Part shown: piece after piece, positions 7,268 through 45,580 of the stretch
How the letters are laid out: each line of letters begins with the position of its first letter
How positions within the stretch are numbered: position 1 is the first letter of the stretch
Assembly: GCF_003722075.1 (NCBI RefSeq)
Contig: NZ_RDSK01000015.1
Location: forward strand, 84,500 to 148,499
DNA from: Methanohalophilus sp. RSK
GTDB taxonomy: Archaea; Halobacteriota; Methanosarcinia; Methanosarcinales; Methanosarcinaceae
Length of the DNA: 64,000 bases
Reading direction: 5' to 3'
Notes under the pieces: model-generated
Databases searched by the model: none
The model's input: the letters and a program-made list of their open reading frames with translations, nothing else
What the model was told of the DNA's origin: nothing
Position numbers and translations under genes: made by a program

Positions 7268-7700
7268 ATGCCTAAAATCGATCCCTATTCCCTTATCGTT
7301 TATCCTTTATCTAAAAAACACGATGTTTCTTTTTTTAATTCAACTGAAGAAGAGTTGAACGATTTTTTTAAAAACGATGCAAAAAACAATCAAGAACAAT
7401 TAGTAAGTAGAACTTACGTTTGTTATTATGAAAAACACTTGGTGGGGTATTTTACATTAACAACCGATGTATTAGAAGTTAAAGCAATTAAAAGAGAAGA
7501 TATGTGTGATGATTTCGCACATGACCCTTACCCCGCTGTTAAACTTGCACGGTTGGCCGTCGATCAAAATTATGAAAGAATGGGAGTGGGTCAACTTAGT
7601 TGGATTGCTAGCTGTAAGAAATAGTATTTTTATAAAGCAGGGGTTATATGTTTGTTAAATATTAAACCAATTTTTATAAATTCTGTTAAAACGTTCCTTA
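7268..7700 (+). pseudogene. decayed GNAT acetyltransferase (toxin-type)
   Basis: The intact frame gives 118 aa (7268-7624): MPKIDPYSLIVYPLSKKHDV, LVGYFTLTTDVLEV, and motif A start PAVKLARLAVDQNYERMGVG, a classic GNAT acetyl-CoA pyrophosphate loop. It then runs into a short non-homologous tail. A frame shift near 7592 restores GNAT-like LVGLLAVRNSIFIKQGLYV. A further shift gives TNFYKFC, resembling the C-terminal FYxxxGF of these enzymes. The family normally has about 160-175 aa, so the gene appears broken. The frame reconstruction is inference. Confidence 0.55.
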
Positions 7701-27115: not shown

Positions 27116-28492
27116 TCAGAATACCAGACCGAAGTCTTCGAGTTTCTTCTTTGCCCCGTCGTATACCTTGACGTACTCGTCAGTTGGTGTAACGGTTGCA
27201 ACATCATAGCATTCCTGGAATGTCTTGCCTGCAGGTGCATTGGCATAGTCATTCTCGTAGCTTGCTACGAGTTTATCCAGAATCTGGTTGACAGTATTGA
27301 TATCCATACCAGCGGTTGCACGTGCGACTTCTCCCATCATACGGGCTTCCATACCGGTTGTCTTGTCAGTGATTACACCCTTGGCAGCTGCAACACCGGA
27401 CAGGATCTCACGGCCTGATGCGGTATCTGTCATGGACTGAGCTGCAGCCTCAAGCAGGCACATCTCGGTGCATGGACCGGCACATGGATAGTACTGGTTA
27501 CCGGACATAAGGTCTGTGAACTCGGAAATGGTGGCACATGCCCAACCTGCGATCATAAGGGTCTCACGAGTGTTGGTGGATCCCCAGCGGATGTGCACAG
27601 GACCGTCAAGATGCCAGCTGGCACTGCTCATGACCATGGAGTTGAGGTGAGTTGCAACATCGACGATGGTTGTTTCCTCAACACCGCCGGCGTAACCACC
27701 AAAGATTGGCATCTGTTCATCCATGATGATGTCACTGTTACCCTTGTAGTGGGCAATGACAGCGATTGCGTCAAGATCAATCTTGAGTTCGTTCAACTGG
27801 GAGACTTCGTGGCTGTCGTTGGAGTTCATACCACCGACACAGTCTGCACCGATGTTACCCTGTGCGGACAGGGAGGATTCAGGGCCCTAAACTGCCATAC
27901 CCGGACGACCTGCCATGGAAGCGGCGGTCCTGATCTGGCGGGTTTCGGATTTTGATGCAAGAACCTCGTAGGGACTGCCAGGGATCGGGGATTTACCACG
28001 GGCAGAGGTCATTACACCGTTGACGATTGTGTCACATTCTTTCTCAAGAGCGTAACTCATATGCACAGGCATGAAGACATCTTCAGAAATTGGGGAACCG
28101 GTTGGACCACCCTGGACAATTGGTTTCCTCTTGTCGCCTACTTCACGTTTTTTCATGTAAACTGCGTCACGACCGGTACCAAGCTGGAATTGCCTTTGCG
28201 GATTGTTGATTGCATCCCAGATCTCGTCCTCGGTGTATTTGACGATACGATGAGTGTCGGTACACCAGATACCACACTCAAGAAGCATCTCGAAACCGGC
28301 TTTGAACAGCCTTTCCATCTGGTCCTTGTCGGTTGGAACGAATTCCTTGCCAAAGTCAAGGTTGTATTTCTGCTTCAGTTCCATTGCCTTCACTGGGATG
28401 GTCATTAAATCCCAGTCGTCCTGGGTGCATTTCTCACCGGTCTGGGCACGGTCATAAAAATCATAGCAAGTTACGGATTTGTTAAATGTCAT
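27116..28492 (-). CDS. mtmB1: monomethylamine methyltransferase with pyrrolysine (copy 1)
   Basis: 458-aa MtmB, which transfers the methyl of monomethylamine to the corrinoid protein MtmC. The frame has one in-frame TAG at 27887-27889 (codon 202), the known pyrrolysine position: GRPGMAV-Pyl-GPESSLSAQG. Around it the sequence is unbroken, so this is not a pseudogene. It starts at ATG 28492 with GGAGGATAATTT upstream and ends at TGA (27116-27118). The gene is essentially identical to 43526-44902. It follows mtmC1 by 17 bp. Confidence 0.97.
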
Positions 28493-29170
28493 AAATTATC
28501 CTCCAGATTTTATTTCATTAAGTCAAGAGCTACATTTGCTGCTTCTGCTGCATTTTCTGCTGTTGCGTCAGCACCGAGTTCCTTAATCCAGGAATCTGTG
28601 ACCGGAGCGCCACCGAACATTACTTTTACAGAGTCACGCAGTCCTTCTTCTTCAAGCAGACGCATGACGTCTTTCTGGCCGAGCATGGAAGTGGTCATCA
28701 GGGCAGAGCCGGAGAGCAGAAGTTTCTCGCCTTTGTGGGCTGCTACTTCTTCGATGACCTTGTCGTTGGGTACGTCAACACCCATGTCGATAACGGTGAA
28801 ACCGTTTGCACCGAGCATGGTTGCAACAAGCCTGTGACCTATATCATGAATGTCGCCTTCCTGGACGAACTTGATACAGGTTCCGACAGATACAGTGGAT
28901 TCATCCTCTGCAAGGATTGGATCAAGAATTTCCATGGCGGCTTTCATGGCCTTGGCAGACATCATGATCTGGGGAAGGTAGACTTCGGCGGCTTCGAATT
29001 TGTCACCGATGATCTTCATACCGACAGACAGACCATCGTTGATGATCTCGAAAGGAGTTAAACCTGCATCCAGGGCTTCCTGGACAAGGGGGCCAGCACC
29101 ATTGATGTCCTGGTTGACAATCGCATCTCTGAGTTTATCATACATTTCCTGTTTTCCCATTAAATCACCT
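27118..29170 (-). repeat. 2.05-kb duplication of mtmCB, copy 1
   Basis: This block recurs at 43528-45580 with constant offset 16410. Overlapping translations in other frames are identical as well, so the DNA is identical or very close to it. The boundaries are the stop of mtmB (differing) and the ribosome site of mtmC. Confidence 0.9.
28510..29160 (-). CDS. mtmC1: monomethylamine corrinoid protein (copy 1)
   Basis: 216-aa B12-binding carrier of MtmB. Starts MGKQEMYDKLRDAIVNQDIN; a helical cap then the corrinoid domain with DxHxxG in EGDIHDIGHRLVA (axial His), SALMTTS and VMFGGAPV. The start is ATG 29160 with GGTGATTTA before it; a longer in-frame extension upstream is not coding because the promoter lies there. 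First gene of the methylamine operon. Confidence 0.95.
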   Translation of the reverse strand: MGKQEMYDKLRDAIVNQDINGAGPLVQEALDAGLTPFEIINDGLSVGMKIIGDKFEAAEVYLPQIMMSAKAMKAAMEILDPILAEDESTVSVGTCIKFVQEGDIHDIGHRLVATMLGANGFTVIDMGVDVPNDKVIEEVAAHKGEKLLLSGSALMTTSMLGQKDVMRLLEEEGLRDSVKVMFGGAPVTDSWIKELGADATAENAAEAANVALDLMK

Positions 29171-29180
29171 ATTTCTAACT

Positions 29181-29243
29181 GTACAGCAGCTGTCATATCA
29201 TAGGCTGCTGCTACAATGAACTTAAAAAGCAAATTTATATAAC
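29181..29243 (-). promoter_or_regulatory. mtmC1 promoter and leader hairpin
   Basis: TATA box GTTATATAAA on the minus strand at 29234-29243; the start would be near 29210. Just downstream the leader can fold GTAGCAGCAGC / GCTGCTGTAC (29181-29214). The sequence differs from the corresponding leader of copy 2, whose hairpin has another stem. The region 29244-29566 is AT-rich, without ORF, and separates mtmC1 from mch. Confidence 0.5.
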
Positions 29244-29565
29244 CTATCGGGCTACGGTTTTTCAACCTACATAAAAATAGTAAACACTTCAATAATTCAA
29301 AAAGCGATTCAAAATGACAGATGTAAACAAAGCGATCATGGCATTGAAATCGACAACGTTTTTTGAAAACTAAGTTACAACCATTTCACTATAAAAGTAG
29401 AATTTTAACCAACATTTCTAATATGGAATTTCAGTAAAATTAAGTATAATTTGAGATTGGGAATTACACCATAAATAAGCAATCATTCATCCATAAAACC
29501 GAAACGAATATGTATCGTTCTAACTGTATCATTTGTACTTGTTAGATTTACAATAAAGTAATCTA

Positions 29566-31077: not shown

Positions 31078-32100
31078 TTACCATATACGTGCGTCCACGA
31101 CAACATGCCAGACGCCCGGGGAATATTTTTTGATACTGCGACACTCCATAATCTCCACATTTCTCCCCTGCATTTCCACTGCCTTTTTAATCTGCCCGAT
31201 TGGTCTATCAAACATTAAATTTTCAGCCAGTGCTTCATGAAAATGCAATATACCCCCTTTTTTACTTAATGCCCCAATTGCAGCAGGCAAATAATCCGCT
31301 GTTCCTCCCACATAGCCCATAATTACCCGGTCAGCAACTCCTTGAGGTGTAATTTCTGCACAATTCCCATGCAGGGGCTGTACAATATGTTGCACATTAT
31401 TCAACCTGACATTGTCTTTGAGGTAGCCAAAAGAGACAGGATTCAGTTCAATCGAGTATATTTTTTCAGGTTGGGAATGTACGGCCATCGGGAGACTGAA
31501 ATAACCAATTCCAGCAAACATATCAACAACAATCTCCCCGGTTCCCAATTTACTCATCCTGTTTTTTTCCCTGAGGTTGCCTTTGGAATACATGACCTAT
31601 GTCACATCAAGTTTGAAGTAACAACCGTTCTCTTTGTGTATTGTTTCAGTGGTATTGCCACTCACAAGCTGTCTTTTTGGTTGCCGTAAACTGCCATTGA
31701 TACCCAAATCCCTTACGACAGTATCACAAGAGGGATACATATTCAGTAATTCTTCAGCAATTTCCCCTCCCCTGTGGATTATTTTTTCAGGAATGGTAAC
31801 TACTATAATGTTTCCAAGGATTTGCCAGCCGGAAGGAATTGTTTCCAGTTCCTCCGGTTTCATTATTCCGGCAAGCCTCTCTTTCAGACTCATTTGTTGA
31901 CGGTAGAACTCCGGTTGTTCCTGACGTTTTATTTCATAGCCACGTACAAAATCCGTGACTGGAATTTCGACAAAACTTTCACCTGCAACAATGCGAGATA
32001 TGAATTTTCGGTTTCCATCCAGCAACCCTTCGGATTGTAGTTTAGACCTTACTTTTTCAGTATCCCTGGCAGGTACCATAACTGCAAAATTTTCTTCCAT
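31078..32100 (-). CDS. tRNA-G37 wyosine-pathway transferase (Taw2/Trm5 family) with in-frame TAG
   Basis: 340-codon gene read through one TAG at 31597-31599 (codon 168). The frame is the same on both sides: NGCYFKLDVT-TAG-VMYSKGNLREKNRM. The upstream part (1-167) is the RNA-binding N-terminus. Downstream is the SAM-binding Rossmann domain: VVDMFAGIGYFSLPMA and IYSIELNP. A VIMGYVGG loop in place of the Trm5 NLP/NPP motif favours Taw2, the aminocarboxypropyltransferase of tRNAPhe. Relatives usually have Lys/Arg at this site, and Lys AAG is one base from TAG. Pyrrolysine insertion is inferred because the organism uses TAG that way in mtmB. Alternative: nonsense mutation. Confidence 0.7.
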
Positions 32101-37107: not shown

Positions 37108-38766
37108 ATTCGTTTTGAAAACGAGACTATAACAGATGTCTTCGAAGAGATGGTTCAAAAAGATCCTCAAAAGGACTTTATGGTTTATCCGGACCGGGAT
37201 CTTCGTTTTAATTACAGTCAATTCAATGAGCGTGTGAATGACCTGGCAAAAGGTTTGCTTGCCCTGGGACTTAAAAAAGGGGACCACATAGGCATATGGG
37301 CCCGCAATGTACCCGACTGGCTGACTTTCCTGTTTGCAGCTTCCAAGATCGGAGCAGTCCTTGTAACTGTAAATACCTCATACCGAAGCCACGAACTTGC
37401 TTATGTGGTAAAACAGTCCGATATGAAAGCACTGGCTATAATCGATGGATTCAGGAATGTGGACTATGTTCAGACTGTTTATGACATTGTGCCTGAACTC
37501 AAAACACAGCAAAGAGGAAATCTTACAAGCCAGGAATTCCCTGAGCTAAATCATGTAATCTATATAGGACAGGAAAAACACAGGGGCATGTACAATACCC
37601 GTGAATTGCTTCTGCTTGGAAAACATTGTTCTGACGCCGAACTTGCACAAATAAAGGCATCCACTACCGCTGATGATGTGGTCAACATGCAGTACACCTC
37701 CGGTACAACCGGTTTCCCTAAAGGAGTAATGCTGACCCATAAAAATATCCTCAACAACGGTTATTACATCGGTGAAAAACAAAAATTCACAGATCAAGAT
37801 CGCCTGTGCCTGCCTGTGCCCCTATTCCACTGTTTTGGGATTGTGCTCGGCGTACTTGCGGCCCTGAGCCACGGAGCAACGCTGGTGATGCTTGAAGTAT
37901 TTGATCCGCTCCTTGTACTCGCAGCAGTCCAGAAGGAAAAATGTACGGCCCTTTATGGCGTACCGACCATGTTCATTGCAGAACTCAACCATCCAATGTT
38001 CGACATGTTTGACCTGTCATCCCTGCGTACAGGAATCATGGCAGGATCACCGTGTCCCAAAGAAACCATGAAAAAGGTCATTTCGGATATGCACTGCGAT
38101 GAGATCACAATCGCTTACGGGCTCACGGAAGCCTCTCCGGTAATGACCCAGACCAGTATCGATGATACCATTGAAAGGAGGGTCAGCACCGTAGGTATAG
38201 CAATGCCCCTAATCGAAGTCAAAATAGTTGACCCGGATACAGGTGAAAAACTCGGCCCGGGACAGCAGGGCGAGATATGCTGTCGCGGTTACAATATAAT
38301 GAAAGGTTACTACAAAATGCCTGAAAAGACAGCCGGGACGATCGACAGGGATGGATGGCTCCACAGTGGTGATCTGGGGACAGTTGATGAATATGGATAC
38401 TACAAGATTACCGGCCGTATCAAGGACATGATCATTCGCGGCGGGGAAAATATCTACCCAAGAGAGATCGAAGAATTCCTGTACACCATAGACGGAGTCA
38501 GGGATGCACAGGTGGTAGGTATCCCTGATGAAAGGTACGGTGAGATCGTAGGTGCTTTTGTAATGCTTCAGGAAGGAGCTGACCTGAGCGAGGAAGACAT
38601 ACGTGAGTACAGTATGGAGAAAATTGCACGGTACAAAGTTCCAAAACACGTATTCATTGTGGATGAATACCCAATGACAGCAAGTGGTAAAATCCAGAAA
38701 TTCAAGTTGCGTGAGATGGCAACTGAATTACTGGAAAAGGAGAAAAAGGAAGAAGAGCAGATTTAA
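37108..38766 (+). CDS. acyl-CoA synthetase (AMP-binding), probable ATT start
   Basis: 552-aa ANL-family ligase forming acyl-CoA from acid, ATP and CoA. The AMP-binding P-loop [16 protein letters not shown] is clear, then [22 protein letters not shown] and the C-terminal Lys in [11 protein letters not shown]. The family N-terminus ([20 protein letters not shown]) lies upstream of the first ATG (37150). In that frame only ATT 37108 follows AAGGAGG (8-nt spacing). I therefore place the start at ATT, a rare initiator. If ATG 37150 were used, 14 conserved-like residues would be lost. Confidence 0.85.
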
Positions 38767-43525: not shown

Positions 43526-44902
43526 TTAGAATACCAGACCGAAGTCTTCGAGTTTCTTCTTTGCCCCGTCGTATACCTTGACGTACTCGTCAGTTGGTGT
43601 AACGGTTGCAACATCATAGCATTCCTGGAATGTCTTGCCTGCAGGTGCATTGGCATAGTCATTCTCGTAGCTTGCTACGAGTTTATCCAGAATCTGGTTG
43701 ACAGTATTGATATCCATACCAGCGGTTGCACGTGCGACTTCTCCCATCATACGGGCTTCCATACCGGTTGTCTTGTCAGTGATTACACCCTTGGCAGCTG
43801 CAACACCGGACAGGATCTCACGGCCTGATGCGGTATCTGTCATGGACTGAGCTGCAGCCTCAAGCAGGCACATCTCGGTGCATGGACCGGCACATGGATA
43901 GTACTGGTTACCGGACATAAGGTCTGTGAACTCGGAAATGGTGGCACATGCCCAACCTGCGATCATAAGGGTCTCACGAGTGTTGGTGGATCCCCAGCGG
44001 ATGTGCACAGGACCGTCAAGATGCCAGCTGGCACTGCTCATGACCATGGAGTTGAGGTGAGTTGCAACATCGACGATGGTTGTTTCCTCAACACCGCCGG
44101 CGTAACCACCAAAGATTGGCATCTGTTCATCCATGATGATGTCACTGTTACCCTTGTAGTGGGCAATGACAGCGATTGCGTCAAGATCAATCTTGAGTTC
44201 GTTCAACTGGGAGACTTCGTGGCTGTCGTTGGAGTTCATACCACCGACACAGTCTGCACCGATGTTACCCTGTGCGGACAGGGAGGATTCAGGGCCCTAA
44301 ACTGCCATACCCGGACGACCTGCCATGGAAGCGGCGGTCCTGATCTGGCGGGTTTCGGATTTTGATGCAAGAACCTCGTAGGGACTGCCAGGGATCGGGG
44401 ATTTACCACGGGCAGAGGTCATTACACCGTTGACGATTGTGTCACATTCTTTCTCAAGAGCGTAACTCATATGCACAGGCATGAAGACATCTTCAGAAAT
44501 TGGGGAACCGGTTGGACCACCCTGGACAATTGGTTTCCTCTTGTCGCCTACTTCACGTTTTTTCATGTAAACTGCGTCACGACCGGTACCAAGCTGGAAT
44601 TGCCTTTGCGGATTGTTGATTGCATCCCAGATCTCGTCCTCGGTGTATTTGACGATACGATGAGTGTCGGTACACCAGATACCACACTCAAGAAGCATCT
44701 CGAAACCGGCTTTGAACAGCCTTTCCATCTGGTCCTTGTCGGTTGGAACGAATTCCTTGCCAAAGTCAAGGTTGTATTTCTGCTTCAGTTCCATTGCCTT
44801 CACTGGGATGGTCATTAAATCCCAGTCGTCCTGGGTGCATTTCTCACCGGTCTGGGCACGGTCATAAAAATCATAGCAAGTTACGGATTTGTTAAATGTC
44901 AT
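43526..44902 (-). CDS. mtmB2: monomethylamine methyltransferase with pyrrolysine (copy 2)
   Basis: 458-aa MtmB, the second copy. All visible codons are the same as mtmB1 except the stop: TAA here (43526-43528) against TGA there. The in-frame TAG is at 44297-44299 (codon 202). Function as for copy 1: methyl transfer from monomethylamine to MtmC. It follows mtmC2 by 17 bp. Confidence 0.97.
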
Positions 44903-45580
44903 AAATTATCCTCCAGATTTTATTTCATTAAGTCAAGAGCTACATTTGCTGCTTCTGCTGCATTTTCTGCTGTTGCGTCAGCACCGAGTTCCTTAATCCA
45001 GGAATCTGTGACCGGAGCGCCACCGAACATTACTTTTACAGAGTCACGCAGTCCTTCTTCTTCAAGCAGACGCATGACGTCTTTCTGGCCGAGCATGGAA
45101 GTGGTCATCAGGGCAGAGCCGGAGAGCAGAAGTTTCTCGCCTTTGTGGGCTGCTACTTCTTCGATGACCTTGTCGTTGGGTACGTCAACACCCATGTCGA
45201 TAACGGTGAAACCGTTTGCACCGAGCATGGTTGCAACAAGCCTGTGACCTATATCATGAATGTCGCCTTCCTGGACGAACTTGATACAGGTTCCGACAGA
45301 TACAGTGGATTCATCCTCTGCAAGGATTGGATCAAGAATTTCCATGGCGGCTTTCATGGCCTTGGCAGACATCATGATCTGGGGAAGGTAGACTTCGGCG
45401 GCTTCGAATTTGTCACCGATGATCTTCATACCGACAGACAGACCATCGTTGATGATCTCGAAAGGAGTTAAACCTGCATCCAGGGCTTCCTGGACAAGGG
45501 GGCCAGCACCATTGATGTCCTGGTTGACAATCGCATCTCTGAGTTTATCATACATTTCCTGTTTTCCCATTAAATCACCT
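43528..45580 (-). repeat. 2.05-kb duplication of mtmCB, copy 2
   Basis: Second copy of the block at 27118-29170, in the same orientation. Sequence past either end is unrelated between copies. Confidence 0.9.
44920..45570 (-). CDS. mtmC2: monomethylamine corrinoid protein (copy 2)
   Basis: 216-aa corrinoid carrier identical in translation to mtmC1, with EGDIHDIGHRLVA (axial His). GGTGATTTA precedes ATG 45570. The identity with copy 1 extends about 10 bp upstream of the start codon, to the ribosome site, and then stops, so the leaders and promoters are different. Confidence 0.95.
   Translation of the reverse strand: MGKQEMYDKLRDAIVNQDINGAGPLVQEALDAGLTPFEIINDGLSVGMKIIGDKFEAAEVYLPQIMMSAKAMKAAMEILDPILAEDESTVSVGTCIKFVQEGDIHDIGHRLVATMLGANGFTVIDMGVDVPNDKVIEEVAAHKGEKLLLSGSALMTTSMLGQKDVMRLLEEEGLRDSVKVMFGGAPVTDSWIKELGADATAENAAEAANVALDLMK

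Follow-up and report, generated by a model that had tools for sequence, protein, structure and literature searches.

An in-frame TAG in an otherwise intact Taw2-like gene of Methanohalophilus sp. RSK is probably read as pyrrolysine

Does the lone TAG codon in a tRNA-modification gene of Methanohalophilus sp. RSK end translation, or is it read as pyrrolysine (Pyl)? The strain, described as originating from Kebrit Deep in the Red Sea and as using mono-, di- and trimethylamine as well as methanol (PMC6491703), is represented by a draft assembly of 1,969,036 bases in 18 contigs, from which we analyzed one stretch of 64,000 nucleotides (the window). As the original prediction had described, a gene of the Trm5/Taw2 family in this window contains a single in-frame TAG at codon 168, with open and homologous sequence on both flanks and a 340-codon translation when the TAG is taken as a residue (Table 1). 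Under the standard code, the gene is split into a 167-residue ORF and a 171-residue ORF, the latter starting at Met170. When the bases of the downstream stretch were shuffled 20,000 times, the 172-codon frame following the TAG stayed open only once, and sequence searches showed this stretch to be homologous to full-length enzymes; the open frame is therefore not due to chance. The Pfam families Trm5_N and TYW2_N_2 were matched before the TAG and TRM5-TYW2_MTfase after it, and the match of PF02475 to the read-through product (196 bits, residues 153-312) spans the TAG. Apart from the TAG, no stop interrupts the 340 codons, and neither further lesions nor relaxed constraint, the marks of a pseudogene, were found. 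Only one Taw2-like copy was detected in the RSK genome, and the order of the genes neighboring it is conserved in five congeners.

We refer to the product as Taw2-like because, unlike the Taw2 proteins MJ1557 (M. jannaschii) and PH0793 (P. horikoshii), it carries a D1-like Trm5_N domain, and because it scored below the cut-off of the corresponding family model. Thus, the absence of a D1 domain expected of Taw2 was not observed, as Trm5_N matched at residues 7-55; most of the 120 best-listed relatives (among 4,167 matches) are annotated with this Pfam entry as well. Among NCBIfam models, the Taw2 model NF047824 scored best, with 255 bits, below its equivalog cut-off of 350 bits. MJ1557 and PH0793 are nevertheless the closest solved structures by sequence (38% and 34% identity, respectively), and an AlphaFold model of the RSK protein (mean pLDDT 92.2) gave TM-scores of 0.93 with MJ1557 and 0.89 with PH0793, of the target, in Foldseek. 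Foldseek ranked P. abyssi Trm5b first, with Taw2 entries fifth, eighth and ninth, which we ascribe to the N-terminal domain matching Trm5b as well. In addition, the RSK protein shares with MJ1557 and PH0793 the Gly of the MGYV motif, reported to be a Taw2-type residue that replaces an Asn of Trm5 (N265 of MjTrm5; PMC7761594), while the Trm5b-like paralogue of RSK reads MNLP at this position.

In P. horikoshii TYW2, Arg116 is reported to contact SAM and to be required for activity, Glu155 to contact the SAM ribose, and the archaeal R116 position is given as K225 in the human enzyme (PMC3386263). The Arg-to-Lys exchange at the corresponding Lys179 of the RSK protein is conservative. We considered and rejected the idea that codon 168 itself represents the catalytic Lys of human TYW2 (K225), as K225 is equated with archaeal R116, which is Lys179 here, 11 residues beyond codon 168. 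As the 167-residue piece ends ahead of both mapped SAM-contacting residues, activity of this piece on its own appears implausible. Taw1 was found in the RSK genome and Taw3 gave no match there, so that the predicted end product would be yW-86.

Table 1. Features of the Taw2-like gene and of other RSK genes with an in-frame TAG. Positions are those of the window unless a locus handle (L) precedes them.
Feature	Position	Strand	Remarks
Taw2-like gene	31078..32100	minus	340 codons from ATG to TAA including one in-frame TAG (translated with TAG as a residue)
In-frame TAG	31597..31599	minus	Codon 168; GAG (Glu) in 5/5 close congeners; other relatives mostly Lys
Part before the TAG	31600..32100	minus	167 aa; Trm5_N (D1-like) and TYW2_N_2; stops short of both mapped SAM-contacting residues
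Part after the TAG	31078..31596	minus	SAM-binding catalytic core; purifying selection
ATG (Met170)	31591..31593	minus	Two codons past the TAG; possible restart; Met in 120/120 best-listed relatives
Lys179	31564..31566	minus	Aligns with P. horikoshii TYW2 Arg116; numbering mapped by hand
Glu218	31447..31449	minus	Aligns with P. horikoshii TYW2 Glu155; numbering mapped by hand
Gly262	31315..31317	minus	MGYV motif; Taw2-type residue where Trm5 has Asn
mtmB copy 1	27116..28492	minus	TAG at 27887-27889 within PF05369 match, 756 bits; internal reference for Pyl
mtmB copy 2	43526..44902	minus	TAG at 44297-44299 within PF05369 match, 756 bits
GAF/PAS histidine kinase	L125:8759-10396		One in-frame TAG, residue 254; PAS match 188-294 spans the TAG
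Subtilase-family protein	L123:5164-8943		One in-frame TAG, long open continuation
VWA protein	L177:1613-6811		One in-frame TAG, long open continuation

Reading a TAG as Pyl presupposes a decoding system, and the original prediction had assumed one from the two mtmB genes of the window. Indeed, the genes for Pyl synthesis and charging are complete: pylT (anticodon CTA), pylS, pylB, pylC and pylD are intact and form a single cluster in the RSK genome, and pylS, pylB, pylC and pylD each exceed their NCBIfam curated cut-off. Both mtmB copies bear one in-frame TAG each, as had been stated, and their translations are identical. Each copy is paired with an mtmC, assigned by eye, at window positions 27116-29292 and 43526-45570.

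UAG is reported to serve as both a sense and a stop codon in Pyl-using archaea (PMC2933860). We counted stop codons in mechanically called ORFs of at least 450 bases in 464 kb of the RSK genome (the window plus 400 kb). Of 361 such ORFs, 178 ended with TAA, 176 with TGA and seven with TAG. These seven are the two mtmB genes, the Taw2-like gene and pylB, plus three ORFs whose frames continue for another 264, 291 and 764 codons. Six of the seven remain open for at least 172 codons beyond the TAG, the seventh being pylB. Among the interrupted genes outside the window (Table 1), a domain match bridges the TAG in the kinase only, and the subtilase-family and VWA cases rest on the open frame. Seven shorter TAG-ended ORFs encode 100-148 residues, several of them with short continuations. 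Taking ORFs of at least 100 codons together, at least 100 further codons were open in 6/14 TAG-ended cases versus 35/427 (P 0.0008), and in 3/11 (P 0.06) when the mtmB genes and the Taw2-like gene were left aside. Given the shorter ORFs, TAG is rare as a terminator in RSK but may still end some genes.

Two of the TAG-ended ORFs deserve separate mention. At window positions 7268-7624, a 118-residue ORF, by eye a truncated acetyltransferase, ends with TAG and is followed by 69 further codons that are open except for a second TAG. The pylB gene of RSK (L121:13902-14963) is TAG-ended, as in all 15 pyl clusters examined (those of five sampled Methanohalophilus genomes and ten further loci, two of them also from Methanohalophilus), with 14-42 further open codons. 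The end of pylB is reported as TAG in M. mazei, M. acetivorans and M. burtonii and as TAA in M. barkeri (PMC2933860); a feedback of Pyl on PylB would be a guess.

To place the TAG codon among its relatives, we compared column 168 across the family. Among the 120 best of 4,167 matches, the column holds Lys in 108, Arg in six, Glu in four and Leu and Gly in one each, in agreement with the earlier claim that Lys or Arg is common at this site; Asp or Gln occurs in some further relatives. Given this range of residues, site 168 looks tolerant. The five close congeners (90-92% identical), M. euhalobius among them, all carry GAG at this codon, and RSK branches inside these five in a tree of six neighboring ORFs, albeit with weak bootstraps (40-71). 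In a 77-gene tree, strain RSK is reported to be nearest to M. euhalobius (PMC6491703). The last step would therefore most simply be a GAG-to-TAG change at a site that had already departed from Lys, and not the direct AAG-to-TAG path proposed originally. Likewise, the codon does not lie in a linker, as had been supposed, but within the TRM5-TYW2 domain PF02475, where the AlphaFold model predicts a loop (residues 166-175) between a strand (160-165) and a helix (176-183).

Of 111 Methanosarcinaceae genomes, 103 gave a match with an E value of at most 1e-60. Only RSK has a stop within the gene, and the other 102 matched genomes have none; we therefore rejected the idea of a conserved Pyl site. In keeping with this distribution, no stop was seen in the Taw2-like gene of the seven congeners searched. 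Three of 85 good Methanosarcinaceae genomes lack a match at the same threshold, so the gene is not strictly essential. No RNA signal that assists recoding (PYLIS-like) was seen at the Taw2-like TAG: the 101 nucleotides starting from it folded worse than shuffled sequences (z +1.65). By the same comparison, mtmB of RSK is likewise without structure after its TAG (z 0.12).

For residues 169-340, dN/dS between RSK and the five congeners was 0.075-0.132, compared to 0.085-0.226 among the congeners themselves. Moreover, the changes unique to RSK after the TAG comprise six synonymous and two nonsynonymous ones (P 0.002 under neutrality for so few nonsynonymous changes). The part after the TAG is thus under purifying selection, and no relaxation is visible, although the comparison would miss a TAG of very recent origin.

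We also asked how in-frame stops behave in the genus at large. Five Methanohalophilus genomes were surveyed over 400-464 kb each, roughly one fifth of their length. A first pass returned 186 in-frame stops (111 TGA, 41 TAG, 34 TAA) with no excess of TAG. An overlap rule against antisense and other shadow ORFs removed 171 of these and left 15 (6 TAG, 4 TAA, 5 TGA). Five stops were backed by at least three other genomes, four TAG and one TAA, a weak departure from an expectation of one third (P 0.045); the other ten had the support of one genome each and by eye mostly resembled shadow ORFs or starts placed too far upstream. In M. mahii, a TAG noted in a photolyase-related gene did not survive the filtering of the survey.

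In M. mahii (G007), the citrate synthase gene has a full-length frame of 372 residues that includes one TAG; the gene is stop-free in two other genomes (G002, G005) and is reduced to a short remnant in RSK and three congeners (G000:C13:205146-205373; L181). An acyl-CoA synthetase-like gene, so assigned by eye, is stop-free in RSK (window positions 37150-38766). Among its orthologues, codon 372 is TAG in M. halophilus (G006) and codon 305 is TAA in M. profundi (G004); one of these may be a Pyl codon, the other looks like decay. The citrate synthase remnants and the stops in the acyl-CoA synthetase-like gene together indicate that genes do decay in Methanohalophilus.

This tendency bears on the main rival to decoding as Pyl, a young loss of function in which the TAG mostly terminates and the enzyme is lost, or nearly so, while the downstream part has not yet decayed. 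Such a loss would account for the presence of the TAG in a single genome out of 103, would need only one base change and would resemble the fate of the two stop-bearing genes above; in M. acetivorans, moreover, an amber codon in a reporter is reported to have mostly terminated translation, with 20-30% read-through (PMC2933860). However, no second lesion is present in the 340 codons, and constraint is strong over the whole branch in the part after the TAG. In addition, TAG seldom ends ORFs in RSK, and TAG outnumbers TAA four to one among the five in-frame stops supported by at least three congeners in the five sampled genomes. Weighing these points, we regard a young loss of function as unlikely.

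Single-base substitution errors are uncommon in well-covered Illumina/SPAdes contigs, and the RSK genome has further TAG-interrupted ORFs, both of which speak against an error of sequencing or assembly that has turned a real GAG into TAG. The RSK data are described as Illumina MiSeq reads assembled with SPAdes (PMC6491703). On the other hand, the source is a single draft assembly, and we found no second strain sharing the TAG: the top full-length database match of the protein is 91% identical, and the top match of the 171-residue piece, among proteins of 94-299 residues only, 66%. As the database is clustered at 90%, a cluster could conceal a nearly identical strain. Altogether, an error strikes us as very improbable. 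We assign a slightly lower probability still to a split gene, in which the ribosome halts at the TAG, restarts at the ATG two codons on and thus produces two peptides that together form the enzyme. Three of 120 listed matches of the 171-residue piece (P0004, P0007 and P0021; 170-172 residues, two of them from short metagenome contigs) do start exactly at the position of Met170, so that C-terminal pieces of this kind are predicted elsewhere as well. A TAG may lie just upstream of them, and short contigs, a frameshift or a stop are candidate causes of their shortness; four close genome relatives of P0021, however, have unbroken frames of 300-313 residues. The ATG itself encodes an old Met conserved in all 120 of the best-listed relatives, and so is not newly gained; the bases around it are nearly the same as in the congeners, arguing against the gain of a start signal, and the break would fall inside PF02475.

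Based on these results, we suggest that the TAG at codon 168 is likely read as Pyl by the cell's own tRNA-Pyl, giving a full-length enzyme from an otherwise intact gene. The original prediction of a candidate Pyl protein outside methylamine metabolism thus appears likely to be correct, given the open homologous frame, the pyl genes, the sense codon in relatives and the constraint after the TAG. An ancestral Lys would have been replaced by Glu (GAG) in the Methanohalophilus lineage, and a single base change would then have converted GAG to TAG in RSK. The change could have survived as TAG is readable as sense in this strain and site 168 probably tolerates several side chains, pointing to a neutral origin. 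No RNA signal would be needed, competition between Pyl-tRNA and release factor setting the yield. For the full-length product, the predicted reaction is transfer to tRNA-Phe of the aminocarboxypropyl group found in the wyosine derivative yW-86. By analogy with the read-through of the M. acetivorans reporter, the enzyme may be made at a lower level, and perhaps more of it when Pyl is plentiful.

It had further been proposed that wyosine modification could respond to the supply of Pyl. The yW-86 step of tRNA-Phe would then depend on Pyl, with full wyosine during methylamine-rich growth, less on methanol and a shift in the reading of Phe codons with carbon source; the loop may also be a repeated landing site for TAG. 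We consider such control a slim possibility that gained no specific support: the TAG occurs in one of 103 genomes, no RNA structure accompanies it and other RSK ORFs carry a TAG as well. As the stop is restricted to this one genome, neutral drift, as for M. acetivorans Thg1, would fit better than a conserved switch.

In-frame ambers confined to a single species are already known from M. acetivorans (Thg1) and from M. mahii (citrate synthase). Thg1, the tRNA-His guanylyltransferase, likewise acts in tRNA processing, and its amber, too, occurs in frame in just one species; it is reported to be translatable as Pyl and dispensable for activity (PMC2933860). Translation of the Thg1 amber as Pyl has been tested, whereas that of the RSK codon is predicted from sequence. 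For citrate synthase of M. mahii, a housekeeping gene of the same genus, the authors proposed Pyl at the in-frame amber (PMC3017947). That gene may be decaying, as remnants in RSK and three congeners suggest, in contrast to the Taw2-like gene, which is stop-free in the seven congeners searched. The TAG in MtmB, MtbB and MttB is likewise in frame, including the two mtmB genes of the window, but the Pyl of these enzymes is catalytic and conserved, whereas the Taw2-like TAG occurs in one genome and Glu or Lys takes its place in relatives. A 2009 study by Heinemann, judging by its title, reportedly ascribed the Thg1 amber to neutral evolution. Kivenson and co-workers are said to have described, in 2025, an archaeal code in which TAG is avoided as a terminator and read as Pyl genome-wide, to which the TAG usage of RSK would bear likeness on both counts. 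In-frame amber candidates have also been catalogued, with neutral drift named as a likely cause for some (PMC3639795).

If translated as suggested, the Taw2-like protein would extend the Pyl proteins outside methylamine metabolism by one. Standard annotation is likely to call such genes pseudogenes or to split them. As the gene is the sole Taw2-like copy found, as the GAG congeners offer controls and as the strain grows on methylamines and methanol, nature provides at this locus a clean test of whether Methanohalophilus simply uses TAG as a Pyl codon.

TAG codons were also encountered in other members of the family. A Trm5-like paralogue in M. halophilus (G006, C1:514900-515583), whose RSK counterpart has 277 residues, carries a TAG of its own (TCG to TAG) in the motif LDL*EVFF, at the column adjoining codon 168. 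Two family members in two species thus have a TAG at neighboring columns, and the loop around codon 168 may be a repeated landing site for this codon. Finally, a Trm5b-like gene in a genome of another Methanosarcinaceae genus (G025; L226:285-1331) contains an in-frame TAG near its C-terminus.
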